Origin: Flavobacterium johnsoniae UW101
GTDB taxonomy: Bacteria > Bacteroidota > Bacteroidia > Flavobacteriales > Flavobacteriaceae
DNA: 64,000 bases
Direction of reading: 5' to 3'
NCBI RefSeq assembly: GCF_000016645.1
Contig: NC_009441.1
Span: 310,001 to 374,000 of the forward strand
Made by a program: the position numbers and the translations under genes. This document shows, in pieces, positions 580 to 61,946 of this stretch. The stretch's first letter is position 1; each line of letters begins with the position of its first letter. The notes under the pieces were generated by a model. That model saw only the letters and a list, made by a program, of their open reading frames with translations. It had not been told where the DNA came from and ran no database searches.

Positions 580-613
580 ATATTTTTGTTGATTTAAGGG
601 CTTAAATTCGAGG

Positions 614-621
614 CAAATGTA
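614..621 (-). promoter_or_regulatory. Candidate -7 promoter element TACATTTG
   Basis: The minus strand reads TACATTTG, an exact match to the Bacteroidota -7 consensus TAnnTTTG, 34 bp upstream of the ATG at 579. The nearest upstream TTG lies only 11 bp away instead of the usual 17-23 bp, so the -33 element is not convincing. It would allow separate transcription of the glycosylphosphotransferase gene. Confidence 0.3.
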
Positions 622-636
622 TTATAAAAAAACAAT

Positions 637-3080: not shown

Positions 3081-4195
3081 TTCTTCAACAAATTTTTAAT
3101 TTCAGTTTCAAAAACTTCCATAGTATATTTTTGTGACCAATTTTGCGCTAGTTCACTTTTAATTAAAAAATCATTTGGATTAGATAACAAATTTTGAATT
3201 TGAATTCTATCTTTTTCCAAATCCATTTCCAACAATATTCCTCTTTTTCCATGATCGAGCATAAAAGGAACACATGAAATTTTTGTTGCAACAGGAACAC
3301 ATCCTAAAAACATCCCTTCTGCTATGGTTTTTGGCCAGCCTTCGCTTTTAGAAGGCAAAATCACAAAATGGCTTTTTTCATATGCTAGTTTAAGTATTTC
3401 CTTTTTCTGGTTTCCATGTAAAAATACATTTTGTTCCAAAGAATTGGTTGTAATATAATCCTCTAAAATTTTTCTCTCAATTCCTTCTCCATACATATTC
3501 AGAACTATATTATTACCGCTTTTAATTAGTTCATTTACCAGTCGTAAAGCATACAAAGGATTTTTCCCTTTAACTAAACTACCTGTGAATATAAAATTTA
3601 CGAAAGTACTTAAAGCTGGTTTTGATACTATTTTTTTTTCTGACTCATAATAAGTTGCTGTAAAAAAAGACTTTATATTTTTAGACTGACCAGGCCATTC
3701 CCCATACACCAAAACCTGTATATTTTTAGTCAAAAAAGTATTACTCAAAATATATTTTTGCAATTTATATGTCCAGGGCTGATTACTTTTTGGGTCCCAA
3801 TTACCAGCATATTTTGCCGTTTTTATTTTACTTGGAAAAAAAATCTGAGCAAAACTTCCAATTAATCCTACGTTGCCAGGACAGCGCAAATGAACATGAT
3901 CTGCATCTTTAATTGCTTTAAATAAAATCATCAGATTATAGATACTCTGAAAAAATGATTTAAAAATATTCGTAAATGAATTTAAATTTGAATCGATTAA
4001 CTTATAATGATTTTCAATAGAAAATGGTATTTCGCTAACCAAAAGTTCTTTGTCAGAAGTCCAGACAGGACATGCAAAAGAAATTTTCTCAATATATTTT
4101 TTATAAACAATCAATTCGCTTGTATATGGACCATAAGCAAATACCTTGTTGTCTTTGTAAATTAAAGGAGCTGTCGAAATAATTAATAATTTCAT
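3077..4195 (-). CDS. GT4-like glycosyltransferase
   Basis: A 372-residue GT-B protein. The C-terminal half has FIFTGSLVKGKNPL (start of the donor domain, near residue 200) and the nucleotide-sugar motif SEGWPKTIAEGMFLGCVPV near residue 285, where the two glutamates are the EX7E pair. The N-terminal half is poorly conserved, as expected for an acceptor-binding domain. Start and stop are tightly coupled to neighbours: 4-bp overlap with the next GT and one shared base with the upstream acetyltransferase. Donor unknown. Confidence 0.82.
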   Translation of the reverse strand: MKLLIISTAPLIYKDNKVFAYGPYTSELIVYKKYIEKISFACPVWTSDKELLVSEIPFSIENHYKLIDSNLNSFTNIFKSFFQSIYNLMILFKAIKDADHVHLRCPGNVGLIGSFAQIFFPSKIKTAKYAGNWDPKSNQPWTYKLQKYILSNTFLTKNIQVLVYGEWPGQSKNIKSFFTATYYESEKKIVSKPALSTFVNFIFTGSLVKGKNPLYALRLVNELIKSGNNIVLNMYGEGIERKILEDYITTNSLEQNVFLHGNQKKEILKLAYEKSHFVILPSKSEGWPKTIAEGMFLGCVPVATKISCVPFMLDHGKRGILLEMDLEKDRIQIQNLLSNPNDFLIKSELAQNWSQKYTMEVFETEIKNLLKK

Positions 4196-4749
4196 TAAAT
4201 ATATCCTTCTGAACCCTTTTGGGAAATTAATACTGCAGGTACTCCTAAAACAACACTATTATCTGGAAAAGAATCTTTTACCATTGAACAGGCACCAATC
4301 AAGACATTATTACCAATAACTATTTTTCCAGCCAGAACGGCATTTGCTCCTATGTAAACATTATTTCCAACAGTTGGAGTTCCTCTATTTTCATTTAATC
4401 CCGAAACACCAATAGTAACTCCTTGTGAAATATTACAATTGTCCCCAATAATTACATTTGAATTAATAATTATTCCTCCAAAATGTCCAATATAAAAAGA
4501 ATGACCTATTTGAACTGAATAAGGAATTGAAATTCCTGTAAGAATCTCAATCCATTTTTGCCACAAAACAGCAAATGCTAATAATAAAAATCTAAAAAAT
4601 TTCCATTTTACATTTTTATGAATAGCATTGGCAAATCTGTATTGAACAATTGCCCAGAATCCTTGTGTAAAAAAAAGAATTACGAAAGGATTAGCACCGT
4701 ATTTCTTATATTTATTAAAATCTGATTTTATAAACCTAAATAATTGCAT
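4195..4749 (-). CDS. Left-handed beta-helix acetyltransferase (serine acetyltransferase/WcaB-like)
   Basis: A 184-residue protein whose C-terminal ~100 residues are hexapeptide repeats (for example IIINSNVIIGDNCNISQG and VGNNVYIGANAVLAGKIVIG), ending with the typical VVLGVPA. The organisation matches CysE-type and WcaB-type acetyltransferases, trimeric enzymes that use acetyl-CoA. It lacks the long helical N-terminus of true CysE and lies inside a glycan operon between two GTs, so O-acetylation of a sugar residue is more likely than cysteine synthesis. The acceptor is unknown. Confidence 0.83.
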   Translation of the reverse strand: MQLFRFIKSDFNKYKKYGANPFVILFFTQGFWAIVQYRFANAIHKNVKWKFFRFLLLAFAVLWQKWIEILTGISIPYSVQIGHSFYIGHFGGIIINSNVIIGDNCNISQGVTIGVSGLNENRGTPTVGNNVYIGANAVLAGKIVIGNNVLIGACSMVKDSFPDNSVVLGVPAVLISQKGSEGYI

Positions 4750-4784
4750 ACATTTATTTTAAGATAACTCTCTCAGTTAAGCAT

Positions 4785-5789
4785 TTATATTTGAGGCTTT
4801 TTAATTAACAAAGTCCACCAGCCGATAGTTCTTCCAAATGCTTCGGTAATTACAGCTTTTTTATTTTTTTCTGTCAATATATTACTATACCGTATTAAGG
4901 TTAATAAAATAGTAATAGAATTCCATTTCAATCGGTCTTTAAAATTTGGTTTTGGATTCTTTATTCTCCATACATACCAGCCATTTCTAACTACCATTTT
5001 ACCGTATTTGTATTGATTAGGACGACCAGAAGGATCATGATAGTGAGCTAATCTGGCAGAAGTATTTAAATACAAGTTTCCTTTTTTGGCTACTCTCAAT
5101 GAGAAATCTGCATCTTCATACAGACCATATCCTTCAAAATAATGAGAGAAAGAAAACATATCAAAAACTGATTTTTTAAATGAAGAAACACCTCCCATTA
5201 ACTGCTCAACCCTATATGTTTTATCACTCGGAGGTAAAAAACCAACACTTCTGCCATGAGAAAACAAAGGTGAAAAACCTGGAGGGCAATCACTATCTAA
5301 ATTAAGTTTTTTTCTTAATACAAATCTGCTTCCATCTTTTCTCTTCCAACCGTCAAAAGTAAAATCATGAATTGTGGAAACATAATTTTCTTGTATTCTT
5401 TCCCATTTTACCTCATTACTAATATAACCGCCAACTCCTAATGCATCAGGATAAATTGTGTAGGTAGACAATAAATTTTCAAAATAATCTGGTTCTAAAA
5501 TAACATCATCATCTAAAAAACATATAATTTCCGAATTATTCTGTACATTAGAAATCCCAAGATTACGCTGTCTTGTCAGTCCTCTATCTTCATCTTTAGC
5601 TTTAACATATTTTAAATTTTCAAAATGAATTTCATTTAAAAGAACTTCCGTTTTATCATCTGTTGAGCCATCGATAATTATAATTTCGTCAGGATATAAA
5701 ACTTGTTCCTGAACCGATTTCAATAGCTTGATTAAAGGTTTAGGACGCATGTAAGTACAGACAATAAGCGAAAAGCGAAATAATTTCAT
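4785..5789 (-). CDS. GT2-family glycosyltransferase
   Basis: A 334-residue GT-A enzyme. It opens with FSLIVCTYMRPKPL, has DGSTDDKT near residue 40 for nucleotide binding and the metal-binding acidic motif FLDDDVILEP at residues ~91-100. A GLYEDADFSLRVAK segment near residue 220 provides the usual catalytic-base region (ED). Inverting transfer from an NDP-sugar to a lipid-linked or peptide-linked acceptor is expected. The Asp triad resembles that of rhamnosyl- and galactosyltransferases, but the donor is not assignable. Confidence 0.87.
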   Translation of the reverse strand: MKLFRFSLIVCTYMRPKPLIKLLKSVQEQVLYPDEIIIIDGSTDDKTEVLLNEIHFENLKYVKAKDEDRGLTRQRNLGISNVQNNSEIICFLDDDVILEPDYFENLLSTYTIYPDALGVGGYISNEVKWERIQENYVSTIHDFTFDGWKRKDGSRFVLRKKLNLDSDCPPGFSPLFSHGRSVGFLPPSDKTYRVEQLMGGVSSFKKSVFDMFSFSHYFEGYGLYEDADFSLRVAKKGNLYLNTSARLAHYHDPSGRPNQYKYGKMVVRNGWYVWRIKNPKPNFKDRLKWNSITILLTLIRYSNILTEKNKKAVITEAFGRTIGWWTLLIKKPQI

Positions 5790-12788: not shown

Positions 12789-14221
12789 TAAAACTGAAAG
12801 TATATAAATTCTTTATAATCTGAAAAAGTTCCAAAAGCCATAATTGCCAAAATCGCTAATGCAATTTTCAGAATATTTCTTCTCCCCGAAAGTGGTTCTG
12901 TTTTTGTACGACAATTCCATTCAACTATAGTAAATACTCCTATCAGCAAAATTAATTCGTAGTTGTAACGTTCATTATCAAGATATTGAAAATTAAAATC
13001 TCCGTTTAAAACCATTCGTTTTAAATATAAAAGAGCATCAGTTATTGTTTTTGCTCTAAAAAATACCCATGCAATACAAGTAATAATAAAAGTTGAAAGA
13101 ATACTTAATGCAACTTTTACAGAATCAAAATTCCATTTTAATTCTACTGTATCCATATTGTTCCTATTTTTCTTTGATAATAACAACGGAAGAAAATACA
13201 CTGCATTTATAAATCCCCATGCTATATAGGTCCAGTTTGCTCCATGCCAAAACCCACTCACAACAAAAATTATAAATGTGTTTCTGATTTTCATCCAAAG
13301 TCCTCCTTTGCTTCCGCCAAGTGGAATATACAAATAATCTCTAAACCACGATGAAAGCGAAATATGCCAGCGTCGCCAGAACTCTGCAATATCTCGAGAG
13401 AAATACGGATAATTGAAGTTTCGCAATAAATCTAATCCAAAAAGTTTGGAAGTTCCTAAGGCAATATCTGAATATCCTGAAAAATCTCCATAAATCTGAA
13501 AAGCAAAATATATTGCACCCAATATTAAAGAAAATGAATTCATTGATTGGTAATGATCAAAAATCGCATTTGCATATGTAGCACAAGTGTCCGCAATGAC
13601 TACTTTTTTTACCAATCCCCAGATTATTTGGCAAACCCCTTCTTTTGCTTTTTCGAAATCAAATTCACGTTTTACCTTAACCTGAGGTAATAAGTGAGTA
13701 GCTCTTTCAATTGGCCCTGCAACTAATAGAGGAAAGTAACTTACAAATAACGAATAATCTATAAAATTATATTCTGCTTTTATTCGTTTATAATATATAT
13801 CGATTACATAAGATAATCCGTGAAAAGTATAAAATGAAATTCCAACCGGAAGAATTACATTCAACAAGATAGGACTCGCTTTAAATCCTAAAGAGGTAAA
13901 TAATTCTGCAAAAGATGCGGCAAAAAAATTATAATATTTAAAAACTCCTAAAAATCCTAAATTGACAGAAATACTGAGCCAAAACCAAAACTTTCTTTTT
14001 CGTTCGGACTCGCTTTTTTCAATCTGGATTCCTGTAAAATAATCTAAGAATGTAGAAAAAACTAATAAAAAGAGAAATCTCCAATCCCAGCAAGAATAGA
14101 AATAATAACTGGCAATAATTAATAAAGCATTTTGTGTGCTTTTAGTTTTATTAAAAACAAACCAATACAAGAAAAAAACTATTGGTAAAAAAATAGCAAA
14201 TGCTATAGAGTTGAAAAACAT
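12788..14221 (-). CDS. MBOAT-family O-acyltransferase (AlgI-like)
   Basis: A 477-residue polytopic membrane protein with the hallmark motifs of the AlgI/DltB-type MBOAT family: FQIYGDFSGYSDIALG (residues ~241-256), FWRRWHISLS (281-290), FRDYLYIPLGGS (293-304) and SGFWHGANW with the catalytic His326. It takes an acyl group, normally acetyl from acetyl-CoA, through the inner membrane for transfer to an extracytoplasmic glycan. Its two SGNH partners follow immediately. Length and order match alginate-type acetylation modules, but no alginate synthesis gene is present, so the acceptor is one of the glycans made by this locus. Confidence 0.93.
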   Translation of the reverse strand: MFFNSIAFAIFLPIVFFLYWFVFNKTKSTQNALLIIASYYFYSCWDWRFLFLLVFSTFLDYFTGIQIEKSESERKRKFWFWLSISVNLGFLGVFKYYNFFAASFAELFTSLGFKASPILLNVILPVGISFYTFHGLSYVIDIYYKRIKAEYNFIDYSLFVSYFPLLVAGPIERATHLLPQVKVKREFDFEKAKEGVCQIIWGLVKKVVIADTCATYANAIFDHYQSMNSFSLILGAIYFAFQIYGDFSGYSDIALGTSKLFGLDLLRNFNYPYFSRDIAEFWRRWHISLSSWFRDYLYIPLGGSKGGLWMKIRNTFIIFVVSGFWHGANWTYIAWGFINAVYFLPLLLSKKNRNNMDTVELKWNFDSVKVALSILSTFIITCIAWVFFRAKTITDALLYLKRMVLNGDFNFQYLDNERYNYELILLIGVFTIVEWNCRTKTEPLSGRRNILKIALAILAIMAFGTFSDYKEFIYFQF

Positions 14222-14235
14222 AAGTTAATTAAATT

Positions 14236-15642
14236 TTATACTAAATTATCAGCAATTGATTCTATTGCCTGCCATATTCTATTTGAAGCTTTTTCTGGAG
14301 AATGCTGATTTATAATTTCAAACCATTTTTGTGCATTTTGAACTATTTCATCATTTTGTTCCAATCCTGATTTAATTTTATCTACAATTTCATCAGCAGA
14401 ATTTAACCAAATAACCGATTTTTTATCAGGCATTGAACGAAAGTGTATATAGTTATAAATTTTTGATACAGACCAATTTTTATCTATCCTATTTGTCACA
14501 TCATAATTAATAAAAGCACATGGCTTTTTAAAACATATATAATCAAATACCATTGATGATCCAAGATTTACAACCATCTCAGTATGATAAATTGTATTTG
14601 CAAGCAGGCTGACATCATCTTTAGTTGGTAAAACTGTATTCCATTCTTCTCCTATTTTTTTCCAATTTGGATCGATTGAAACTATTAGGTCTTTATTTCT
14701 TTCCAAGACTTTATCATATCTATTTGAGAAATCGACTGGACAGCGTCTAAAAATTATACCTAATGAATTTGTGTTTTCTTCATTAATTTTTCTTAAAGCA
14801 TCAGCTACATCAGCCAAATATTGAGCATCATCCGGGCAAGTTGTAATATCATCTCCAGAATAACATATATACTTTTTGCTTAAATCTAATTTATATTTAT
14901 TAAAAAACTCAACTTTATCAATAATGCTGTTTTTATCAAAATGACCTTCAAACTGTGGAGTTCCTACAACAAAAATTTGATTTTCATTTATATAGGAATA
15001 ATATTTTAAAAGCTCCGATTTCATGTGTTCACTCCAAACAAAATAATAATCTGTCTCAACAACCATTGTGGCTTTTGGCAGATTATCCCAGGAAAAAATA
15101 AAAGTCCCTGTTGGGATTTTTAATTCTTTTGCTGCTAATATTGGAGCAATGGCTAGTACTGGCCGTTGATTTGTACAGAAAATAAAATCTGGTCTTTCGA
15201 TTTCAAGCGTCTTTAGAGAATCTTTATAGAAATCTGTTTTTTTTTCTCCATTTTTTATTTTTTCCCTAACTTTTGATAATCCTTTTTCTGAGTTGTACAA
15301 TGAAATCAAAAATCTGGCAATATAACTTTTAAGAGCTATCTTTATATTTTTATATGAAAAAGGAAAGCGATATGTATCGTAAACATGATCTTTTTCTTTT
15401 TTAATATTTAGATTTAACTCTATATGTTTTCTAGCATTTTTATAGCTATCTGTTAAAGGATTTGATTTGGCATTATTTATTTTAATTTCATTAAAACCTA
15501 AGCCAGTCAAATCAAATGGTGTATTGTTCCAATAGGTTATATCAAAATTCTTTTCTAATCCTATTTCATAAAAATTAGAAAAAGCAAAATTTCGGAGTCC
15601 AACTCCATCAGGAAGAAGAATAAAAATCTTTTTATCAGGCAT
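14236..15642 (-). CDS. Putative GT-B-type transferase of unknown specificity, next to sialic-acid genes
   Basis: A 468-residue cytoplasmic protein. I do not recognise a specific family. Visible features suit a GT-B fold related to CDP-glycerol glycerophosphotransferase-like or surface-carbohydrate transferases: FIFSWDNLPKATM near residue 190, WSEHMKSELLKYY followed by QIFVVGTPQFEGHFD near residue 240, KKYICYSGDD as the start of the second domain, and GSSMVFDYICFKKPCAFI near residue 385. It starts on the last base of neuC, so it is translationally coupled to the sialic-acid pathway. A sialyltransferase or nucleotide-activated phosphopolyol transferase role is possible but unproven. Confidence 0.5.
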   Translation of the reverse strand: MPDKKIFILLPDGVGLRNFAFSNFYEIGLEKNFDITYWNNTPFDLTGLGFNEIKINNAKSNPLTDSYKNARKHIELNLNIKKEKDHVYDTYRFPFSYKNIKIALKSYIARFLISLYNSEKGLSKVREKIKNGEKKTDFYKDSLKTLEIERPDFIFCTNQRPVLAIAPILAAKELKIPTGTFIFSWDNLPKATMVVETDYYFVWSEHMKSELLKYYSYINENQIFVVGTPQFEGHFDKNSIIDKVEFFNKYKLDLSKKYICYSGDDITTCPDDAQYLADVADALRKINEENTNSLGIIFRRCPVDFSNRYDKVLERNKDLIVSIDPNWKKIGEEWNTVLPTKDDVSLLANTIYHTEMVVNLGSSMVFDYICFKKPCAFINYDVTNRIDKNWSVSKIYNYIHFRSMPDKKSVIWLNSADEIVDKIKSGLEQNDEIVQNAQKWFEIINQHSPEKASNRIWQAIESIADNLV

Positions 15643-40689: not shown

Positions 40690-41625
40690 TTATTTGTCCC
40701 AATTAGAATCTTTTATTTCTTTGTAAACTTTCTGAATGCCTTCTTCTAAACTTGTTTTTGCTTTCCATCCAAGGCTGCTTAATTTTGAAACATCCATTAA
40801 TTTACGAGGAGTTCCATCAGGTTTAGAAATATCATTTAGAATTTCTCCTTCAAATCCAACTATTTTTTTTATCAAAACAGCCAAGTCTAAAATTGAAATA
40901 TCTTCCCCTACGCCTACATTTACTAATCCTTGGTCATCATAATTTTCCATTAAATATAGACAAGCATCGGCAAGGTCGTCTACATGTAAAAATTCTCTTT
41001 TAGGACTTCCACTACCCCATATAGTGACAGAAGTGTCATTATTGCGTTTTGCTGTAATAAACTTTCTCAACATTGCTGGAAGAACATGCGAATTTGTTAG
41101 ATCATAATTATCATTAGGACCATACAAATTTGTTGGCATAACCGAAATGAAATTACATCCAAATTGACTTCTATATGCATCACACATTTTAATTCCAGCA
41201 ATTTTAGCAATTGCATATGGTTCATTAGTTGGTTCTAACTCTCCTGTAAGCATATATTCTTCTTTTAATGGCTGTGGCGCCATTTTTGGATAAATACATG
41301 AAGAACCTAGAAACATTAATTTTTTAGTATTATTTAAATAGGCATGATGAATTACATTACTCTGGATCATTAAATTTGCATAAATAAAATCTCCTTTATA
41401 AATATTATTTGCAAGAATTCCACCGACTTTTGCAGCCGCTAAAAAAACATAATCCGGTTTTTCTTTCAGAAAGAAATCAGCAACATCTTGTTGTTGTGTC
41501 AAATCTAATTCTGAAGAAGTTTTTAAAACAAAATTTGTATATCCTTTTATTTTTAACTGGCGCAGAATAGCAGACCCTACCATACCACGATGTCCTGCTA
41601 TATATATTTTATCACTTTTATTCAT
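40690..41625 (-). CDS. fcl: GDP-L-fucose synthase (GDP-4-keto-6-deoxymannose 3,5-epimerase/4-reductase)
   Basis: A 311-residue SDR enzyme. The NADP-binding motif is [14 protein letters not shown] (residues 8-21) and the catalytic Tyr-Lys pair lies in [18 protein letters not shown] near residue 136; [21 protein letters not shown] and [16 protein letters not shown] are GDP-fucose-synthase signatures. With Gmd directly upstream (18-bp gap) it makes GDP-L-fucose from GDP-mannose. The GT11 fucosyltransferase at 24793 is a likely user. Mannose activation genes (manB/manC) are not in the window. Confidence 0.96.
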
Positions 41626-41643
41626 TAATTAATTTTATAATAA

Positions 41644-42756
41644 TTATTCGAATTGATTTTTAATAAAATAACCTGCATCCTTCAGAACTTTTTCTTTTTG
41701 AAAATGTTCAACATCTGCAGCCATCATTTCTTTTACTAATGAGGGCAAATCGTATTTAGGTTCCCACCCTAGTTTTGTCTTCGCTTTAGTTGGATCACCA
41801 ATTAATAAATCGACTTCCGTTGGACGGAAATAGGCTGTATCTACGACAACAACTTCTTTTCCTGCTTCAATTTGGTATGCAGGATTCGAACATGAACGTA
41901 TATATCCTTTTTCATCTATGCCCTCACCTTTGAATTCAATCTCTATACCAACTTCATTAAATGACATTTTAACAAAATCTCTAACGGTTGTTGTAACTCC
42001 TGTCGCAATAACATAATCTTCAGGTTGATCTTGCTGCAAGATCAGCCACATTGCTTCTACATAATCTTTAGCATGTCCCCAATCACGTCTAGCATCTAAA
42101 TTTCCTAAATATAAACAATCTTGAAGACCTAGAGCCATTTTAGAAACTGCTCTAGTGATCTTACGGGTTACAAACGTTTCTCCACGTAGTGGACTTTCAT
42201 GATTAAATAGAATTCCGTTACAAGCAAAAATGCCATAAGCCTCACGGTAATTCACTGTTATCCAATATGCATAAAGCTTAGCTACCGCATAAGGTGATCT
42301 TGGATAAAATGGGGTATTTTCAGATTGAGGAACAGCCTGAACCAAACCATATAATTCTGAGGTTGAAGCCTGATAAATCTTCGTTTTTTTAGTAAGATTT
42401 AATATTCTTAGAGCCTCTAATAATCTTAATGTTCCTATACCATCTGCATTTGCTGTATATTCAGGTGTATCAAAGCTCACTTTTACGTGACTCATTGCTC
42501 CTAAATTGTAAATTTCATCAGGTTGAACTTCCTGAATAATCCGAATAAGATTCGTAGAATCACTTAAATCACCATAATGTAATTTAAAACGAATATTTTT
42601 TTCATGTGGATCTTGATACAAATGATCTATTCTATCTGTATTAAACAACGAACTTCGACGTTTAATTCCATGAACTTCATATCCTTTTTTTAATAGCAAA
42701 TCTGCTAAATAAGCACCGTCTTGTCCTGTAATCCCTGTAATAAGTGCTATTTTCAT
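41644..42756 (-). CDS. gmd: GDP-mannose 4,6-dehydratase
   Basis: A 370-residue extended SDR enzyme: [19 protein letters not shown] (NADP-binding glycine motif), [37 protein letters not shown] with catalytic Tyr and Lys, [17 protein letters not shown], and [17 protein letters not shown]. These are specific for Gmd. It oxidises GDP-mannose to GDP-4-keto-6-deoxymannose for Fcl. The length matches the family. It follows rfbA by 34 bp, the position where rfbB might have been expected. Confidence 0.97.
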
Positions 42757-42790
42757 TTTATTTTTTTATTTAAAATTTCAAATTAAATTT

Positions 42791-43666
42791 TTATTTGCTT
42801 CTTCTTTTGTTTAGAAAACCTAATAAATAAGTTCCATATCCTGATTTAAGTAATGGCTGAGCTAATTTTTCAAGTTGATTATCATCAATAAATCCTTGTC
42901 TCCAGGCAATTTCTTCAATACAACCTACTTTAAGTCCTTGTCTTTCTTCTAAAACCTGTACAAATTGTCCTGCTTGCATTAAACTATTAAAAGTTCCTGT
43001 ATCAAGCCATGCAGTACCTCTGCTTAATATACCTACTTTTAATTTTCCTTTTTCAAGATAAGCCTTATTAACATCTGTAATCTCATATTCACCACGCGGA
43101 CTAGGTTTAATACTTTTTGCAATTTCTACTACAGAGTTATCATAAAAATATAAACCTGGAACTGCATAATTAGATTTTGGTTCTATAGGTTTCTCTTCTA
43201 TAGAAATAGCATTTTTATTTTCATCAAATTCTACTACACCGTATCGTTCTGGGTCTGCAACATGATAAGCGAAAATAACTCCACCTTCTGGATCAGCATT
43301 ATCTTTTAAAAGTTGCTGCATATTTGTTCCAAAGAAAATATTATCTCCAAGTACTAAAGCAACCTTATCTTTACCTATAAACTTTTCTCCAATTACAAAA
43401 GCCTGCGCAAGTCCATTTGGTATAACTTGTTCCGCATAACTAAATTTACATCCTAAACTTGATCCATCGCCCAATAATTTTTTAAAATTTGGTAAATCAT
43501 GGGGAGTTGATATTATAAGAATTTCATTGATTCCCGACATCATTAATGTTGATAAAGGGTAATAAATCATGGGTTTATCATAAACAGGCATCATTTGCTT
43601 ACTCATTGCCAATGTCAAAGGATGTAAACGTGTACCCGAACCTCCAGCTAAAATAATCCCTTTCAT
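42791..43666 (-). CDS. rfbA: Glucose-1-phosphate thymidylyltransferase
   Basis: A 291-residue enzyme with the hallmark [63 protein letters not shown] and [12 protein letters not shown]. It makes dTDP-glucose from Glc-1-P and dTTP, the entry to dTDP-rhamnose and other dTDP-6-deoxysugars. It follows rfbD by 32 bp. The next enzyme of the route, RfbB, is not encoded in the window. Confidence 0.97.
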
Positions 43667-43698
43667 AAATATTCAATTCAGATCTATACGATCCTAAA

Positions 43699-44544
43699 TT
43701 ATATAAACATATTTTTTAAACTTTTCTTATAACAAGGTATTTCTAAATTATAAGTTTCTTTTATTTTTTTCTTATCTAATAATGAAAATCTTGGACGCTT
43801 TGCTGGAGTATGATATAATGAAGATGCAATACCTTCAACCTTACAACTATATCCTCCAAATTCTTTTATAGAGAGAGCAAATTCGTACCAACTAATTTCA
43901 CCTTCATTCGAATAATTATAAACCCCTGGAAACCAACCGCAAAACCTTACAATATTAATCAATACCTGTGCTAAATCTGCGGCATATGTTGGTGACCCAA
44001 TCTGATCATTTACAACATTAATTTCATCTCTTTCCAGCATTAGTCGCTGCATGGTTTTTACAAAATTTTTTCCAAATTTACTATAAACCCAAGAAGTTCT
44101 AATGATAATTGAATTTGGGTTTTCTTTTAAACAAGCTAATTCACCTTTTAATTTACTTTCTCCATATACATTTATCGGATTAGTCTCAGCTTCTTCATTT
44201 AGAGCAGAAGATGAAGACCCATCAAATACATAATCTGTTGAAACATGTATTAATTTTACATTATTTTCGTATGTATACTTTGCAATTAATTCTACTGCCA
44301 AATAATTTATTATAAATGCCAATTCTTTTTCTGTTTCTGCTTTATCTACATCTGTATAGGCTCCACAATTAAAAATAACATTAGGCTTAATTTCATTTAA
44401 CTGGATCTTAAGCAACTCTAAATTATCTAATGTGATTTTTATTCTATCTGCAAAAATCCATTCAAATTCTGGATAAGATGTTGATAAAACAAAGAGTTCA
44501 GATCCTATTTGTCCATTTGCTCCTGTTACAAGAATCTTTTTCAT
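43699..44544 (-). CDS. rfbD: dTDP-4-dehydrorhamnose reductase
   Basis: A 281-residue SDR enzyme: KKILVTGANGQIGSELFVL (NADPH site), NCGAYTDVDKAETE, HVSTDYVFDG, NVYGESKLKGE with the Tyr-Lys pair near residue 128, and IIIRTSWVYS. It makes dTDP-L-rhamnose in the last step. It starts on the last base of rfbC, so the two are translated together. Confidence 0.95.
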   Translation of the reverse strand: MKKILVTGANGQIGSELFVLSTSYPEFEWIFADRIKITLDNLELLKIQLNEIKPNVIFNCGAYTDVDKAETEKELAFIINYLAVELIAKYTYENNVKLIHVSTDYVFDGSSSSALNEEAETNPINVYGESKLKGELACLKENPNSIIIRTSWVYSKFGKNFVKTMQRLMLERDEINVVNDQIGSPTYAADLAQVLINIVRFCGWFPGVYNYSNEGEISWYEFALSIKEFGGYSCKVEGIASSLYHTPAKRPRFSLLDKKKIKETYNLEIPCYKKSLKNMFI

Positions 44545-45092
44545 TAGAATAAACTATTACAATTATCAAGAAAAGGTAGTTTTTGATCTTTTTCAGAAAC
44601 AATTGCATCTTTTAAATCCATTCCCCAATCAATATTTAAAGATGAGTCATCAAATCTAATTCCTCCTTCTGAAGCTTTATTATAAAACTGATCACATTTA
44701 TACATTACCGAAGCAGTCTCGCTGATAACTGAAAATCCATGAGCAAACCCTTGTGGCACTAATAACTGTTTTTTATTTTCAGATGACAACAAAACACTAA
44801 ATACTTTTCCATAAGTTGCTGAATCTTTTCTTAAATCTACAGCAACGTCAATAATTTCACCTTCTAGAACTCGTACTAACTTGGTTTGTGCAAACGGAGG
44901 ATTTTGATAATGCAAACCTCTTAAAGTTCCTCTTTTTGAGAATGATTGATTGTCTTGAACGAAATCAATATGAATATCTAGATCTTCAAATTTAGTTTTA
45001 CTGTAAGATTCAAAAAAATATCCTCTTTCATCTCCAAATATTGTTGGTTCTACAATTAATAAATCTTTTATAAACGTTTTTTCAATTTTCAT
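44544..45092 (-). CDS. rfbC: dTDP-4-dehydrorhamnose 3,5-epimerase
   Basis: A 182-residue cupin enzyme: GDERGYFFESYSKTKFED, QDNQSFSKRGTLRGLHYQ (active-site His in RGLHYQ), EIIDVAVDLRKDSATYGK, VPQGFAHGFSV and MYKCDQFYN. The family length and order are complete. It makes dTDP-4-keto-L-rhamnose. It lies 27 bp after a PglE-like aminotransferase gene and is coupled to rfbD. Confidence 0.96.
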   Translation of the reverse strand: MKIEKTFIKDLLIVEPTIFGDERGYFFESYSKTKFEDLDIHIDFVQDNQSFSKRGTLRGLHYQNPPFAQTKLVRVLEGEIIDVAVDLRKDSATYGKVFSVLLSSENKKQLLVPQGFAHGFSVISETASVMYKCDQFYNKASEGGIRFDDSSLNIDWGMDLKDAIVSEKDQKLPFLDNCNSLF

Positions 45093-45119
45093 TTTAAATA
45101 TAGTACTCTATTCTTTGTC

Positions 45120-46253
45120 TCAATTAAAAAATTCTTCAATTACTTTTCTAATTCTATCCTTATCTTCAATTGTTAAATTTGAACCTGATGGTAAACACAA
45201 TCCGTTATCAAATAGACCTTCCGCAATTTTACCTCCATAGTAGGGGTATTTACAAAAAATAGGCTGTAAATGCATTGGTTTCCAAAGAGGACGACTTTCA
45301 ATATTTGCGTTTTCCAATGCCGTTCTTAAACCTTCCTTATTTATATTATTACTTGGCTTTATAAGAATTGTGTTCAACCAAAAATTCGAAAAATGAGTTT
45401 CATCTAATACTTCTGAAAGTTCTACATTTTCTATTTCTTTAAAAATCTCTTTGTAAAAAAAATGATTTTTTCTCCGCGCTTCAACATTCTTATCCAAGAT
45501 TTTTATTTGTCCTAAACCAATACCTGCACAAATATTACTCATTCTATAATTATATCCAATTTCACTATGTTGATAATGAACAGCTATATCCTTTGATTGA
45601 TTTGAATAAAAAATGGCTTTATCTTTTATTTTTTTAGAATCTGTAATCAGTGCACCTCCACTTGAAGTTGTAATAATTTTATTGCCATTAAAAGAAAGAA
45701 TTCCAAAGCTTCCAAAGCTTCCACATTTTTTACCTTTATATGTACTCCCTAAAGCTTCTGCACTATCTTCAATAATTGGTATTTCATATCTATCTGCTAT
45801 AGCATGAACCTCATCAACCTTATATGGTATTCCATATAAATGAACAGCAATAATTGCTTTAGGCTTTTTTCCTTTTGCTATTCTGTCTTTTATCGCTATT
45901 TCAAGATTCTCAGGGCAAATATTCCATGTATCAGATTCACTGTCAACAAAAACAGGCACTGCACCTTGATACAAAATAGGATTAGCAGATGCCGAAAATG
46001 TCATGCTCTGACAAATTACTTCATCGCCAGCTTTGACATTTAATAAAATCAATGCCAAATGAATAGCTGATGTTCCAGAATTTAATGCAGTTACAAACGA
46101 TTTTTTATTAAAATAATTTTCAAGTTTAATTTCAAAATCATCAACATTTGGCCCTCCGGAAGTTATCCAATTTGTTTCTAATGCTTTCTGAACATATTTT
46201 TGTTCAAAACCACTTTGTGCTGAGAGTGATAAATAAATTCTTGAATTATCCAT
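45120..46253 (-). CDS. PglE-like UDP-4-keto-6-deoxy-HexNAc aminotransferase (DegT family)
   Basis: A 377-residue PLP enzyme. It has WITSGGPNVDDFE, LNSGTSAIHLALILL (PLP phosphate), CQSMTFSASANPILYQGAVP, PIIEDSAEALGSTYKG (Asp to PLP nitrogen) and ILSFNGNKIITTSSGGALIT, where the Lys carries PLP. The SFNGNKIIT form is typical of PglE/LegC-like enzymes acting on UDP-4-keto sugars, so the PglF-type dehydratase at 38576 is the probable supplier. Its 3' gene order (then rfbC) is unlike the VioA-like paralogue at 33182. It overlaps the cupin gene by 8 bp. Confidence 0.9.
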   Translation of the reverse strand: MDNSRIYLSLSAQSGFEQKYVQKALETNWITSGGPNVDDFEIKLENYFNKKSFVTALNSGTSAIHLALILLNVKAGDEVICQSMTFSASANPILYQGAVPVFVDSESDTWNICPENLEIAIKDRIAKGKKPKAIIAVHLYGIPYKVDEVHAIADRYEIPIIEDSAEALGSTYKGKKCGSFGSFGILSFNGNKIITTSSGGALITDSKKIKDKAIFYSNQSKDIAVHYQHSEIGYNYRMSNICAGIGLGQIKILDKNVEARRKNHFFYKEIFKEIENVELSEVLDETHFSNFWLNTILIKPSNNINKEGLRTALENANIESRPLWKPMHLQPIFCKYPYYGGKIAEGLFDNGLCLPSGSNLTIEDKDRIRKVIEEFFN

Positions 46254-56410: not shown

Positions 56411-57817
56411 TTATAATTGCTGTCGTCTTAATTTAATTAATGATTCTTGTGCACCTATTACAATAAACATAAAAAAACTAATTCTAAATTCTTTACAAAC
56501 TACATATGGCCACTTCCAATTTGCATAAGCGATCTGAACTAATCCTTGTACTAAAACAAGTCCTAATATTCCCCATCCTGTATATGCTAGAGAAAAATAA
56601 TCTCCTAGAATTATTGCTCCTCCTGCAATTAAAGATGGTTTAACAAACGGTATTTCATTCTTAATTACAATCAGTGTCGAAAAATTAGAGTGATTACCTT
56701 CTAATAAAACAATTACCGTAAAAACCCCCATTATCAATAACGAAGGAAGTTTGGCATTGGCCCCTATAACTGTCAAAAACCAAGGACATATAAAAATTAT
56801 AAAAAAGGCTCCCAAAATAAATAATACATAATATAAATTCATACTGTAAGCAAACTCTTTTAATAATTCATCCAATTTCCCATTAACTCTTAATACAGAA
56901 AAACGGGATTGATTTATTGAAAAAAAAGTTCCTGCTACGGCACTTACTAATCCAAAAAGCTGCAACATAAGACCATATGATGCAATATCTGATAAAGGCA
57001 AATACAAGCCTGCTAAAAAAAGACTGAATTTATTAATGGCATAACTCCCTATAAACACAAGTCCTAATCTTCGAGAATTATGCCAAACGATATTAAACAA
57101 CTTTATCTTTTCTTCTTTCGTGATAATATAACTGTCTAACTTACCTCGCAAATCGTTCGTAAAAAAAAACCTATATGAAATAATCCTGTTAAAAAAAGGT
57201 GCAACAAAATTTGCAATTACAACTCCTACTAATCCAAATCCCATATAGAGAAAAACAAAAGCTAAGAGGATATAAACCAGTTTTGAGTATACAATAGCTT
57301 TCCTAGATTCCATTATCATCCCTTTTCCAACTAATAAAGAGGTATAATATGAATAGAAAATATCAAAAAAAATAGAAAAAGAAAAAAACAACCAAATTAT
57401 AAAAGCATTATCAACACTTTTAAAACCATCTGTAACCTCATAAATATACCAAGTTCCTAAACTAAGCATAGTAGTCAAAACCACTAAAGCAATCCTCCTG
57501 TAAACATATTGTGCGGTTTTGATCATTGTTGACAGTAAACGATAATTAATTTCAGTAGGACTATCTAAGACTTCTAATCCTTCTTTTTTTAAATTCTGAG
57601 CACCTCCAAAAACATAAGATATGTTCCTGCCAAACTGTGATGCAAATCCAAAATCAAAAAGAGACACTAATGATCCAAATGTTATTAATAAATAATTTAA
57701 TCCTATTTCTTCTTTTGTAAGCATTCTAAGTATCAAAGGCAACGTGATTACTCCTGAGGCTATAGAAAAAATTTGGGCAAAATAGCCCCAAAAAACATCT
57801 TTTTTTGACAATAACAT
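56411..57817 (-). CDS. wzx: Wzx-type polysaccharide flippase
   Basis: A 468-residue protein with about 12-14 membrane helices of the MATE-like polysaccharide transport group: FWGYFAQIFSIASGVITLPL in helix 1, LNYLLITFGSLVSLFDFGF in helix 2 and GLVGVVIANFVAPFFNRI in a later helix. It flips undecaprenyl-diphosphate-linked repeat units to the periplasm, where a Wzy polymerase acts. It is the last gene of the module that starts with the GDPD-like gene, so the WavE product is probably part of its cargo. Confidence 0.88.
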   Translation of the reverse strand: MLLSKKDVFWGYFAQIFSIASGVITLPLILRMLTKEEIGLNYLLITFGSLVSLFDFGFASQFGRNISYVFGGAQNLKKEGLEVLDSPTEINYRLLSTMIKTAQYVYRRIALVVLTTMLSLGTWYIYEVTDGFKSVDNAFIIWLFFSFSIFFDIFYSYYTSLLVGKGMIMESRKAIVYSKLVYILLAFVFLYMGFGLVGVVIANFVAPFFNRIISYRFFFTNDLRGKLDSYIITKEEKIKLFNIVWHNSRRLGLVFIGSYAINKFSLFLAGLYLPLSDIASYGLMLQLFGLVSAVAGTFFSINQSRFSVLRVNGKLDELLKEFAYSMNLYYVLFILGAFFIIFICPWFLTVIGANAKLPSLLIMGVFTVIVLLEGNHSNFSTLIVIKNEIPFVKPSLIAGGAIILGDYFSLAYTGWGILGLVLVQGLVQIAYANWKWPYVVCKEFRISFFMFIVIGAQESLIKLRRQQL

Positions 57818-57931: not shown

Positions 57932-58918
57932 TCAAGCTTTTTTAAATAACTTTTTTAGTTTCAACATTAAAAAAATACATCTAAACTTATAAGAATTTAA
58001 AATTGTTTTACAAATAAGCTCAATTTTATCAAAGATTGAAATTCCTTTTACACAATATTTATCGTAAAGTTCTATCCATTCTTGTGAAGAATAAATGAGT
58101 GGATAGTTTAAAAACTCAATCATTTTATCGGGCAATACAAATCCCAATTCATTCGGAGATGCTATAACAAAATTATTTATTATAGATAATTCAGATTTAA
58201 CAATTTTATTTAAAGGTATTTCACTGTAAAATTTAAGATTTAAATTAAGGTTATATTTTTTACAAAAAGCAAACCATATATATTGTTCAGAAGCGAATTT
58301 CATTTCATATCCTCCTTCTGAATACGGATCATTCCATTTAATCCAACCAGATTGAACGGCTCTTGTAGTTTGCGGTTCTAGCTGAAGTTCGATATCCCAT
58401 AGCTGTTTCATATCACTTGTCAGACCTACTTGAAAAATATCACTAATGTGAAACAAAACAGGAGCTTTTCTAGGATTTAATGAAAAAACATTTGATGTAA
58501 TAATCCTTTGATCAAAAAAACAATATTTTCCTCTATTTGGATATTCAGATAAAAAGTCAATAAAACCATTGTGCGATAACTTACAATCTCCTCTCAGTTT
58601 TATTGCAAATTTTCGACTAGCAACTTTTAAACCATTGTTTGTCGAAACAATCTGCCTATTATTGTTATTGAATTTATTTTTTAAATTATAGTCATTATAT
58701 GATATAGAACCTGGGTCTTCATTAAAAACAATTTTATCATAATCCAAATGACTAACATCAGTATTTATCCATGTTGAAATTATAATTTCTGAACCGGGTA
58801 AAACATTCTTTACACTTGCAATACATTTTTTTGTAAGTTGTTTTTCATCTTCATCATCAGGTTTACCAAGAACTGGCCCTTGTATGATGATAGAAAAATC
58901 AGAACTTTGTATTTTCAT
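57932..58918 (-). CDS. WavE-family glycan transferase
   Basis: A 328-residue protein of the WavE lipopolysaccharide-synthesis family: FSIIIQGPVLG (residues 8-18), EIIISTWINTDVS (44-56) and FAIKLRGDCKLSHNGFIDFL near residue 105. The family is named after a Vibrio cholerae core-LPS gene and is treated as GT-A-like; its donor is not generally known. It overlaps the nucleotidyltransferase gene upstream by 4 bp. Together with two nucleotidyltransferases, a cupin, a HAD and a GDPD-like protein, it probably transfers the activated unit these proteins make. Confidence 0.85.
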   Translation of the reverse strand: MKIQSSDFSIIIQGPVLGKPDDEDEKQLTKKCIASVKNVLPGSEIIISTWINTDVSHLDYDKIVFNEDPGSISYNDYNLKNKFNNNNRQIVSTNNGLKVASRKFAIKLRGDCKLSHNGFIDFLSEYPNRGKYCFFDQRIITSNVFSLNPRKAPVLFHISDIFQVGLTSDMKQLWDIELQLEPQTTRAVQSGWIKWNDPYSEGGYEMKFASEQYIWFAFCKKYNLNLNLKFYSEIPLNKIVKSELSIINNFVIASPNELGFVLPDKMIEFLNYPLIYSSQEWIELYDKYCVKGISIFDKIELICKTILNSYKFRCIFLMLKLKKLFKKA

Positions 58919-59652
58919 AATCTCTTTAAATATACTTCTAAATCTTCAGGTGTTCCAATTCCATGCATATTACTAAATTCAATATCATAAATTCCTATCC
59001 TTGCTCCGTCTTTTATTAAATAATTATAGACTGGACAAGTATAAAACTCATTGTTGACGCGATCATTTTCAATAATCATATCTATGGCTGAATCAACAAA
59101 TTGTGCGCCTTTATTAAAGAGATAAATTCCAACTGTAGCAAATTCTGATATAGCCTCTTTTTCTTTTACTTCAATAACTAAATCATCATTTAATTTAGCA
59201 AAAGACCATTTTGGATTTAATTCTATATCTTTAAAAGTTAGTATCGAACCATCCAAATCTCTATCAAAGCAATCATTAATAAAATCCGGTATTGATATAT
59301 CGACAATTTGATCTGAATTAGCTATTAGCAATGGTAATTCATTATTGATATATTTTCTAGCATACAAAACTGTACAAACAGTACCTTCAGTTAATTTATC
59401 AATACCAATAAATTTGGCATTATATTCTTTTTCAATCTGAACAACTAGTTCTTTTTCCTTTTCTAAATGTTCTTTGCGAGCAATTAAAATGTAATTAGCA
59501 TCTGGATAACTCAAATTATCTAAAACCCTTACTATCATTGGCTTTCCATCAACATCAATAAATGGTTTCGGCTTTTCGTATCCTACATTAGCAAAACGAC
59601 TTCCTAAACCAGCCATAGGGATTACTATATTAATCTTGCTCATATTTATCAT
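58915..59652 (-). CDS. Sugar-1-phosphate-type nucleotidyltransferase, copy 2 (intact signature)
   Basis: A 245-residue single-domain nucleotidyltransferase: INIVIPMAGLGSRFANVGYE has the intact GxGxR signature, followed by KPKPFIDVDGKPMIVRVLDN, TEGTVCTVLYARKYI and LLIANSDQIVDI (metal-binding Asp). GTPEDLEVYLKRL closes it like other NTP-transferases. It activates a small phosphorylated compound with an unknown NTP. A start at the in-frame ATG 59643 would suit equally. It overlaps the cupin gene by 23 bp (14 bp with the inner start) and is a paralogue of the gene at 59969. Confidence 0.85.
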   Translation of the reverse strand: MINMSKINIVIPMAGLGSRFANVGYEKPKPFIDVDGKPMIVRVLDNLSYPDANYILIARKEHLEKEKELVVQIEKEYNAKFIGIDKLTEGTVCTVLYARKYINNELPLLIANSDQIVDISIPDFINDCFDRDLDGSILTFKDIELNPKWSFAKLNDDLVIEVKEKEAISEFATVGIYLFNKGAQFVDSAIDMIIENDRVNNEFYTCPVYNYLIKDGARIGIYDIEFSNMHGIGTPEDLEVYLKRL

Positions 59653-59959
59653 TATTTGCGCCTGGTAATTTCACCACAACAGTTATTACATCAGTTAGTG
59701 CCTTAAAGTTTGTTGTCACTCCTGGAACGATTTTTATTATTTCATTTTCACCATACTGTATACCATTCATTTCAACAATACCATTAACTATTACAGTAAA
59801 TTCAGTTGCAATTTTATGAAAATGAGGATTTTCAAACTCACCCTTTTTATATTTTTTTACTCCAACTTCTACTTCATTTGTCTTATATAAAGATGGTTCG
59901 AAATTTCCAATAAACCATCCTTTGAACATTTCATCTAAATTATATTTTTCTACTACCAT
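59630..59959 (-). CDS. Small single-domain cupin protein
   Basis: A 109-residue cupin: VGVKKYKKGEFENPHFHKIA (metal-ligand histidines in HFHK), TEFTVIVNGIVEMNGIQYGE and EIIKIVPGVTTNFKALTD. It lacks the RfbC active-site pattern and could isomerise or epimerise an activated precursor, or bind it in a regulatory way. It sits between the two nucleotidyltransferase genes, overlapping one and lying 9 bp from the other, so its ligand is probably the compound they activate. Confidence 0.75.
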   Translation of the reverse strand: MVVEKYNLDEMFKGWFIGNFEPSLYKTNEVEVGVKKYKKGEFENPHFHKIATEFTVIVNGIVEMNGIQYGENEIIKIVPGVTTNFKALTDVITVVVKLPGANNDKYEQD

Positions 59960-59968
59960 CTTTCATTT

Positions 59969-60691
59969 TTAATTATAATTCTCAAATTCTGTGATCAATT
60001 TAGGGGAATAAAATGAATGATAATCTTTATTCTCAATTTCATAAAAATTAACTTTTTTATTTCTTAATATAAATTCATTTATAACTGGAGATATAAAAAA
60101 CATTCCGTCACTCTGAACATCATTGATAATTGTCTGGAAAGCACATTCAAAGAAAAGTTTAGCTGAATTGAAATAATAATATCCAGCAATAGCCCTATTA
60201 CTTATAGGGTTCTTTTCAGCAGTTTGAATAACATTCTCTCCATCAGTAAGAATATATGACCATCTAGGATGAACAGATTTAAAAGTTACAACACCTACAT
60301 CGGCTTTTTTATCTAACCAATATGAGTTAAACTCAGACAAATCCTTTTGTATAATTTGATCACTATTTAATATTAAAATAGAATCATCATTATCAATTTT
60401 ATCAATAGTCATTAAAACCGAACATAATCCCCCTTTAGTTTCATTTTTTATTTTTACAATTTCACAATTAGGAGATAATAATTTTAATGTATTATCTAGA
60501 TGATACTTTGTTGCATCTTCGTCTTTAATAACAAAAACAATTTGATTTGGAATTGTTATTGAACTTGTTTTTTCTATAACCCACTCAATCATTGGTTTAC
60601 CTTTAATCTCTACCAAAGGTTTAGGGTAAGGAAAACCAGCCTTATGAAATATTTCTGAAGAACCGGCTAAGGGTATAATTATCTTAAGCAT
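59969..60691 (-). CDS. Nucleotidyltransferase-like protein, copy 1 (altered GxGxR signature)
   Basis: A 240-residue protein from the ATG at 60691; a TTG 6 bp further upstream is also open. It is a paralogue of the gene at 58915: both share PKPLVEIKGKPMIEWV-like, NETKGGLCSVLMTIDKI-like and LILNSDQII-like stretches and an ending with a C-terminal aromatic segment. In this copy the N-terminal glycine loop reads LAGSSEIFHKAG, so the Gly and Arg of GxGxR are replaced by Ser and Ile/Glu. It may be a nucleotidyltransferase of a divergent subgroup or a non-catalytic partner. Confidence 0.75.
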   Translation of the reverse strand: MLKIIIPLAGSSEIFHKAGFPYPKPLVEIKGKPMIEWVIEKTSSITIPNQIVFVIKDEDATKYHLDNTLKLLSPNCEIVKIKNETKGGLCSVLMTIDKIDNDDSILILNSDQIIQKDLSEFNSYWLDKKADVGVVTFKSVHPRWSYILTDGENVIQTAEKNPISNRAIAGYYYFNSAKLFFECAFQTIINDVQSDGMFFISPVINEFILRNKKVNFYEIENKDYHSFYSPKLITEFENYN

Positions 60692-61310
60692 TTTCAATTT
60701 CTTTGATACGTTTTATAATATTCTGATAGGTTACATCATCTGGATTTTCAACTTTCAACAAATGAGCTCCAGAAGCTAGCGCTGCTTTTATGCCATTTTG
60801 ATTATCTTCTATTATCAAGCATTCATCAGGTTGAAACCCCAACCTATTTATAGCCTTGCTGTAAATTTCTGGATCAGGTTTTCCTTTTTCAACATCTTGG
60901 TTTGACAAAAAGAAATCTAAGTATTCTATCAAACCCGATCTTTCCATCATTAATTCAATTGTCTTACGAACAGAATTTGAACATACTGACAAAAGATACC
61001 CGTCATTTTTAAGTTTTGACAAAGCATATCTATGATGAAAAATTGGCTTACAAGTAGTATAAACTATTTCCCATGTATATTCTTGTTTCAAATCATTGAT
61101 AAAATCATGAAGTTTAGTTGGAAGTCCTCCTTCCAAACTTAACATTTCTAATTTTTTCTTGGTAGGTAATCCATCAAAAGTTACTAGGTGATCATACCTG
61201 GTTATCTCAGTACCAAATAGCCCAAGCGCTTTATTGAGGGATTCATAGTGCCAATCACGTGCATCTATTAAAACACCATCCATATCAAAAATTACAGCTT
61301 TAATTTTCAT
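60684..61310 (-). CDS. HAD-superfamily phosphatase (phosphoglucomutase/phosphatase type)
   Basis: A 208-residue HAD protein of the beta-phosphoglucomutase branch. Motif I is FDMDGVLID with nucleophile Asp9 and acid Asp11, motif II is SVCSNSVRK near residue 110, the motif III Lys is in EKGKPDPEIY, and IIEDNQNG gives motif IV acids near residue 165. A helical cap lies between motifs I and II. In this module it would dephosphorylate or isomerise the phosphorylated precursor that the nucleotidyltransferases handle. It overlaps the next gene by 8-14 bp and lies 6 bp after the GDPD-like gene. Confidence 0.88.
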   Translation of the reverse strand: MKIKAVIFDMDGVLIDARDWHYESLNKALGLFGTEITRYDHLVTFDGLPTKKKLEMLSLEGGLPTKLHDFINDLKQEYTWEIVYTTCKPIFHHRYALSKLKNDGYLLSVCSNSVRKTIELMMERSGLIEYLDFFLSNQDVEKGKPDPEIYSKAINRLGFQPDECLIIEDNQNGIKAALASGAHLLKVENPDDVTYQNIIKRIKEIENA

Positions 61311-61316
61311 AATTTA

Positions 61317-61946
61317 TTATTTAAAAAATTCAGTAGCATCTTCTGGTAGATCAGTACAAAGTATTATATCATCTGATTTATGATAATTATTTTCTTTCAG
61401 ATATTTCCACAAGTCAAGATGATTACGTTTGTGAAGTTCAGGAGATACTATAGCGACTTTTTTTCCGCTTTGCAAATGTTTTGATAAAATGTGCTTATCG
61501 TACCATGTCGATTCAAATGAATCCAGCCATATCCCTTCACATTTCTCAATAAATGGCGGAATAGGTTCATATTCACTTTGTCGCGTAAAAGTCATTAAAT
61601 TATTTTTTAAATAACCTATTGTGTCTGGGATAGACATATCAAAAACAAAATAATTTTCAATTCCAAATTCAATTAATTTCTCTTTTAGTTTCACTTGCAA
61701 TCCATCTGACTTAATGTTCAATGCCAAGGTCAAATTTGAATTTGAATAAGTATTATAAATTTTAAAAAAATCATCAATCTTTAAACTGTTTTCATCTGGA
61801 ATATCATGTGAAATTACTAATTCTCCTTTGTAATCTCTAATATCTGTTTCAGTTCCGTATCTTAATTTAAAAGATCTGTCAAAACTAATTTGTTTATTTT
61901 TTTCTTCTTGTGATTTCCAATAGCCTCTATGAGAAATTATATTCAT
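61317..61946 (-). CDS. Glycerophosphodiester phosphodiesterase-like protein (GDPD/PLC-like TIM barrel)
   Basis: A 209-residue cytoplasmic protein. NIISHRGYW gives the catalytic His6 and Arg7, TETDIRDY the metal-binding Glu33 and Asp35, and VISHDIP the second His47. These are the active-site residues of the GDPD family, all present, although the barrel is short (family usually 240 or more). No signal peptide is seen. As first gene of the module it could hydrolyse or form a glycerol- or polyol-phosphodiester. Its leader ends with TAATTAATTAAAATG, the same as that of wzm. Confidence 0.8.
   Translation of the reverse strand: MNIISHRGYWKSQEEKNKQISFDRSFKLRYGTETDIRDYKGELVISHDIPDENSLKIDDFFKIYNTYSNSNLTLALNIKSDGLQVKLKEKLIEFGIENYFVFDMSIPDTIGYLKNNLMTFTRQSEYEPIPPFIEKCEGIWLDSFESTWYDKHILSKHLQSGKKVAIVSPELHKRNHLDLWKYLKENNYHKSDDIILCTDLPEDATEFFK

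Follow-up and report, generated by a model that had tools for sequence, protein, structure and literature searches.

A conserved five-gene module in bacterial surface-glycan loci and its possible role in making a nucleotide-activated building block

The window analyzed here is a 64,000-nucleotide stretch of the Flavobacterium johnsoniae UW101 genome (NC_009441.1, positions 310,001 to 374,000). The open reading frame list confirms six small ORFs running head to tail on its minus strand from 57932 to 61946, where the preliminary description had placed them, and 114 nt separate this run from a Wzx-like flippase gene:

61317..61946, minus strand, 209 aa: GDPD-like phosphodiesterase, core gene 1
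60684..61310, minus strand, 208 aa: HAD-IA phosphatase, core gene 2
59969..60697, minus strand, 242 aa: NT2, nucleotidyltransferase-fold paralogue lacking the canonical NTP-binding signature, core gene 3
59630..59959, minus strand, 109 aa: small cupin with conserved H46, H48 and E53, core gene 4
58915..59652, minus strand, 245 aa: NT1, nucleotidyltransferase with the canonical signature, core gene 5
57932..58918, minus strand, 328 aa: WavE (PF07507) GT-A-fold transferase, frequent optional partner
56411..57817, minus strand: Wzx-like O-unit flippase, context of the window locus, outside the core

Elsewhere the locus contains gmd and fcl-like genes, rmlA, rmlC, a DegT-type aminotransferase, a WecA-like enzyme and several glycosyltransferases, and is therefore a surface-polysaccharide cluster. 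The module matches the window in G+C content (0.284 and 0.286, respectively). Two earlier statements about its boundaries are not supported as worded: inspection of the 178-nt gap ahead of the module, called promoter-like, demonstrated no promoter, and the flippase, taken as the module's end, is a trait of this locus rather than of the core.

The GDPD-like protein adopts the TIM-barrel GDPD fold, as judged from Foldseek matches realigned with VIA-align, a second look at those matches in which families missing from the lists stay possible. The catalytic motif of GDPDs comprises H-R, E-x-D, H and K, with a third acidic metal ligand before the lysine. The catalytic residues are almost invariant in this family (H6 in 74/75 sequences; R7, E33, D35, H47 and K79 in 75/75), and the third acidic ligand is replaced by Asn77 in all 75. 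Bacterial GDPDs such as 3no3 and 2pz0 share the fold, the His-Arg, the E-x-D, the His and the Lys, but differ in the third ligand and are 16–19% identical over the five best rows. A Pfam search of the protein gave no match, the PF03009 gathering score not being reached, and two other genes of the same genome match that family. The best named relative, from a Flavobacterium sp., is 81% identical.

The HAD protein has the HAD-IA motifs (DxDG, Ser/Asn, Lys, ED) intact, with D9, D11, G12, S111, N112, K144, E168 and D169 in 100% of 68 sequences, and the window copy is 56–75% identical to 26 other aligned members. It matches the β-PGM/YqaB group of NCBIfam under the cut-off (β-phosphoglucomutase TIGR01990, 85.7 bits against 189.4). 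Its best solved relative is labeled a putative β-phosphoglucomutase, and the nearest ones include sugar and polyol phosphatases, in keeping with the earlier suggestion of a phosphatase for a phosphorylated sugar or polyol. WavE scores 200.5 bits against PF07507 (gathering score 27), and the same structural comparison gives it a GT-A fold, as expected of the WavE-type transferase first described.

The nucleotidyltransferase signature consists of GxGxR, a catalytic Lys and two metal-binding Asp residues. Among rows with a domain score of at least 200, NT1 carries G17, R19, K29, D114 and D237 together in 74/80 sequences, the window included; the six misses are four NT2-NT1 fusions, probably missed because they were scored on the NT2 half, together with L027 and L051, the latter with a split gene. 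The five residues occur together in 0/77 NT2 sequences, where Arg is found in 2, the second Asp in 3, Lys in 63 and the first Asp in 65. The "two paralogous nucleotidyltransferases" of the preliminary description are thus both paralogues of this fold, with the signature only in NT1. Both exceed the PF00483 gathering cut-off of 21.2 (NT1, 40 bits; NT2, 42.4 bits), neither reaches the PF01128 cut-off of 27 (22.1 and 16.1), and both retain E-K-x-x-I-S, A-x-x-G-x-Y and much of N...F/Y-x-x-P. NT2-NT1 forms a single reading frame in four alphaproteobacterial loci (L032, L087, L100 and L101). Because NT2 has lost the signature, kept the substrate-side motifs and been fused to NT1 in these four loci, it is probably a non-catalytic partner; from these sequence features we infer that NT1 would be the catalyst and NT2 would handle the same substrate. 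Of the eight well-flanked loci that lack a cupin, six (L032, L041, L087, L095, L100 and L101) have a third, still more degenerate paralogue after NT1.

In profile searches of the PDB, NT1 (E 2.6e-30) and NT2 (E 3.1e-27) have their closest solved relative in common, 4evw, presumably a Vibrio cholerae protein, which is annotated "nucleoside-diphosphate-sugar pyrophosphorylase" and for which a search for a function found none. Mannose-1-phosphate guanylyltransferases, RmlA and proteins of the 6-deoxy-mannoheptose pathway come next among the named relatives of NT1, whose best NCBIfam equivalog is rmlA_long, at 59.8 against a cut-off of 320.25.

A profile of the GDPD-like protein retrieved loci from named genomes, of which the best 80 of 200, by GDPD similarity, were kept. 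By record title these come from Bacteroidota, Campylobacter and other epsilonproteobacteria, Alpha-, Beta- and Gammaproteobacteria, cyanobacteria, planctomycetes, Opitutae, Nitrospira, Sporomusa and others, although single assignments may be wrong because many records are metagenome bins. Family models run over 90 records find GDPD in 90, HAD in 88, NT2 in 82, NT1 in 80, cupin in 73 and WavE in 47, the WavE counts resting on an iterated model. A stricter count covers 87 records (L014, L017–L101 and the window, omitting L015 and L016, and also L013, which repeats the contig of L025), and our main counts use the 61 of these with at least 5 kb upstream and at least 8 kb downstream of GDPD. HAD is present in 60/61 of these well-flanked, GDPD-anchored loci, NT1 in 60/61, NT2 in 59/61, cupin in 53/61 (absent in 8) and WavE in 34/61 (missing within range in 27); 52/61 hold the complete five-gene core and 28/61 the core plus WavE. 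The order GDPD-HAD-NT2-cupin-NT1 occurs in 49/87 loci and NT1-GDPD-HAD-NT2-cupin in 8/87. Co-occurrence in other genomes, which the preliminary description had offered as its own test, is therefore found for the core, in order and in many phyla, and the six-gene unit it drew becomes a five-gene syntenic core with an enriched but optional WavE. Module content and order are kept across phyla beyond chance. Pairwise distances are correlated for all 15 family pairs, and the divergence of WavE parallels that of the core; such correlation shows shared history and also host relatedness.

No other neighboring family is constant, the commonest being found in 18/83 loci; a kinase, dehydratase or mutase is thus not an invariable companion of the module. 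Where neighbors are annotated, glycosyltransferase, O-antigen ligase, flippase and capsule or ABC exporter genes lie near it, which agrees with the glycan-related reading first proposed. The exception is Rhizobium tumorigenes, in which the set adjoins a polyol-type catabolic operon outside any annotated glycan cluster. A 17-kb record (L113) has a broken NT1 near WavE, with the other core genes absent. When the Kosakonia core (L091:7225-10340) was compared at the DNA level, by "distant" blastn, with 20,395 E. coli records, nothing matched, which left no E. coli O-antigen of known structure as a key to the product; a tblastn search of phage records with GDPD also gave no match.

Within the phylum the module is rare. 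GDPD matches at E ≤ 0.001 occur in 10/395 sampled genomes, three of them strong (E ≤ 3e-63) and seven weak (E 7e-4 to 9e-13), and cupin (E ≤ 1e-10) and HAD (E ≤ 1e-35) matches fall in exactly the three strong-GDPD genomes, the searches having scored the best first-look candidates per genome (at most 7 for HAD and 11 for cupin). Twenty other listed genomes of the same genus have no match for GDPD, cupin or HAD; the module is therefore sporadic and probably a transferred unit that has spread horizontally. WavE is present in 4/395 genomes, in 2/3 module genomes versus 2/392 others, so that half of its four bearers are without the module; by our own arithmetic, finding it in at least two of three module genomes by chance has p of about 2e-4.

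The preliminary description had pointed to CTP-dependent activation in Campylobacter capsules as a parallel. The published account of the CDP-6-D-glucitol pathway of C. jejuni HS:5 describes a different gene set, HS5.18/HS5.17, with a PF01128 cytidylyltransferase and a PF01370 reductase (PMC10918830). It resembles the module in that a small nucleotidyltransferase activates a phosphorylated compound for the capsule, but GDPD, HAD, cupin and NT2 do not appear in that account, and the module has no such PF01128/PF01370 pair; Pfam finds no PF01370 match among the six window genes. Caulobacter CpgD, a phosphoglycerate cytidylyltransferase, was considered by description, and the open-access literature searched yielded no paper tying this gene set to CDP-2-glycerol.

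Campylobacter offers a link of another kind, in that the module itself appears to lie in a C. jejuni capsule locus. Table 4 of PMC7901785 lists an insertion in the IA3902 (HS1/8) capsule locus, CJSA_1357-1362, whose products of 619, 109, 111, 241, 219 and 212 aa are annotated in order as dTDP-glucose pyrophosphorylase, unknown, ketosteroid isomerase, glycosyl transferase, haloacid dehalogenase and unknown. By order, size and annotation, we infer that these correspond to NT1(-methyltransferase), cupin, SnoaL, NT2, HAD and GDPD. An NT1-methyltransferase fusion in our own set (L065) has 615 aa, and the cupin searches returned homologues labeled C. jejuni (109 aa) and C. coli. The IA3902 insertion differs in its extra SnoaL gene and NT1 fusion, and WavE is not among the genes in that table. 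Nine of its ten genes are reported as common to HS65 (PMC7901785), and homologues of ten IA3902-specific capsule genes are reported from C. jejuni subsp. doylei 269.97 (HS:17) (PMC3845652). In the open-access literature searched, no product is given for the gene set; the one paper found there to list it, PMC7901785, assigns it no function.

The data show genes that are linked in a kept order and whose divergence is correlated, together with the folds, the residue conservation and the fusions described above. We favor, at roughly 55%, a reading in which the five genes are a dedicated, horizontally spread pathway to one nucleotide-activated surface-glycan building block. The GDPD-like enzyme would cleave a phosphodiester and HAD would take off a phosphate, the two together supplying or trimming a phosphorylated precursor that the cupin probably isomerizes. 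NT1 would then join an NMP to the phosphorylated small molecule, possibly a sugar, polyol or sugar acid. NT2 would be its partner, either non-catalytic or put to some other use, and the two probably form a heteromer. A WavE-family GT-A transferase may then attach the unit in roughly half of the loci, or another transferase may do so. The substrates, the nucleotide, the sequence of steps, the roles of the cupin and WavE and the NT1/NT2 complex are proposals. The module would predict that many surface glycans contain one specific building block, those of C. jejuni capsule types HS65 and HS8/17 probably among them; as a small enzyme set, it can be reconstituted. The strongest result against a simple building-block reading is the NMR of IA3902, in which a second polysaccharide was not found and a MeOPN on C6 of Gal was the sole addition (PMC7901785). 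The WavE-less 27/61 loci, the two WavE genomes of the phylum that lack the module, the cupin-less 8/61, the R. tumorigenes setting and the broken NT1 of L113 also count against it.

The module could instead make an ordinary NDP-sugar by an unusual route, with NT1 as a sugar-1-phosphate nucleotidyltransferase, the cupin as an isomerase and HAD as a phosphatase or mutase. The sugar nucleotidyltransferases among the solved relatives of NT1, the β-phosphoglucomutase affinities of HAD and the GT-A fold of WavE all fit such a route, yet we consider it rather unlikely: established pathways to common sugars, to our knowledge, need neither GDPD nor NT2, NT1 falls far under the rmlA_long cut-off, and the commonest extra partner (18/83) leaves no steady kinase, dehydratase or mutase. 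A house-cleaning role, in which GDPD and HAD clear away faulty intermediates, whether phosphodiester or phosphorylated, and NT1 and NT2 recycle the nucleotide part, would suit the two hydrolase-type enzymes among the five. General repair, however, would not be so sporadic (3/395 genomes) and has no need of WavE enrichment, which makes this role improbable.

We give equally little credence to a product destined for the head group of a lipid, a glycan on a protein or a small metabolite, in a region that is simply shared. In its favor are R. tumorigenes, whose set is not part of an annotated glycan cluster, and IA3902, which displays no extra glycan (PMC7901785), whereas the other annotated loci carry glycosyltransferase, ligase, flippase and exporter genes, and WavE has diverged with the core. 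Glycan clusters are mosaic, and unrelated cargo genes might have met by chance; this explanation is refuted by the conserved orders (49/87 and 8/87) and by the strong GDPD, cupin and HAD matches in the same 3/395 genomes.

A more specific version of the building-block pathway is tentative. Activation would run through a phosphodiester intermediate, linked to a nucleotide or to glycerol, which the GDPD-like enzyme, whose metal site is altered, would cleave or rearrange by moving a phosphoryl group. An NT1/NT2 heteromer, one of its subunits dead, would channel this intermediate, and the NDP-linked product would be of a type new to bacterial glycans. It is a similarly speculative proposal that this very pathway is present across many phyla and in the capsule loci of C. 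jejuni. A possible parallel for the paired paralogous subunits is the mannose-1-phosphate guanylyltransferase α/β of PDB 7d72, which we take to be a heteromer with one inactive subunit; it is related to NT1/NT2 by superfamily only. Both 7d72 chains match the NT1 profile, and NT2 is a clear case of a nucleotidyltransferase paralogue retained without the catalytic signature.

A third nucleotidyltransferase-like paralogue, in which the NTP-binding signature is absent, is found in six loci retrieved from other genomes, all of which are without the cupin. It is possible that this paralogue functionally replaces the cupin.

Third paralogue (coordinates local to each locus record)
L032:10772-11509
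L041:11940-12695
L095:10686-11474
L100:10759-11631
L101:10934-11665
L087:10358-11446

One of these loci, L100, lies on the Rhizobium tumorigenes plasmid NZ_CP117266.1, where a variant of the module, with NT2 and NT1 in one frame, adjoins a carbohydrate-kinase/glycerol-3-phosphate dehydrogenase/triose-phosphate isomerase/RpiB operon and is not positioned within any annotated glycan cluster. All core genes are present on a plasmid of Pseudomonas aeruginosa PA83 that is typed as conjugative IncP (NZ_CP017294.1, 106600-125211), accompanied by WavE, a GMC oxidoreductase and an ABC transporter ATPase gene, and adjoined by IS21- and IS30-type transposases. An IMG/VR “viral” contig also carries the complete module (L107:4533-7634, order NT1-GDPD-HAD-NT2-cupin), next to genes resembling rmlD, rmlC and those of an ABC exporter; the contig probably derives from a bacterial O-antigen region.

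In Campylobacter sp. MIT 97-5078 (L056), a second gene set immediately adjoins the module, and the sizes of CJSA_1353-1355 of C. jejuni IA3902 (240, 507 and 132 aa) resemble it. A look-alike, judged by appearance, lies close to WavE in L113.

L056:5095-7834, small HAD, APH-kinase-like protein (524 aa) and nucleotidyltransferase
L113:9346-13720, look-alike of this set

Also close to WavE in L113 is an NT1 homologue broken into two separate reading frames (13710-14479); the remaining core genes were not found in the 17 kb covered. Two loci from the host family of the window genome (L015 and L016) encode a divergent GDPD-like protein (46–49 bits) close to a 555–569 aa protein with NT1 similarity, which in L015 holds two nucleotidyltransferase stretches. 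This gene pair could be remotely related to the module.

Within the window, the module shares its locus with nucleotide-sugar genes.

40690-46253, GDP-fucose-type genes (gmd/fcl), dTDP-sugar genes (rmlA, rmlC) and a DegT-type aminotransferase
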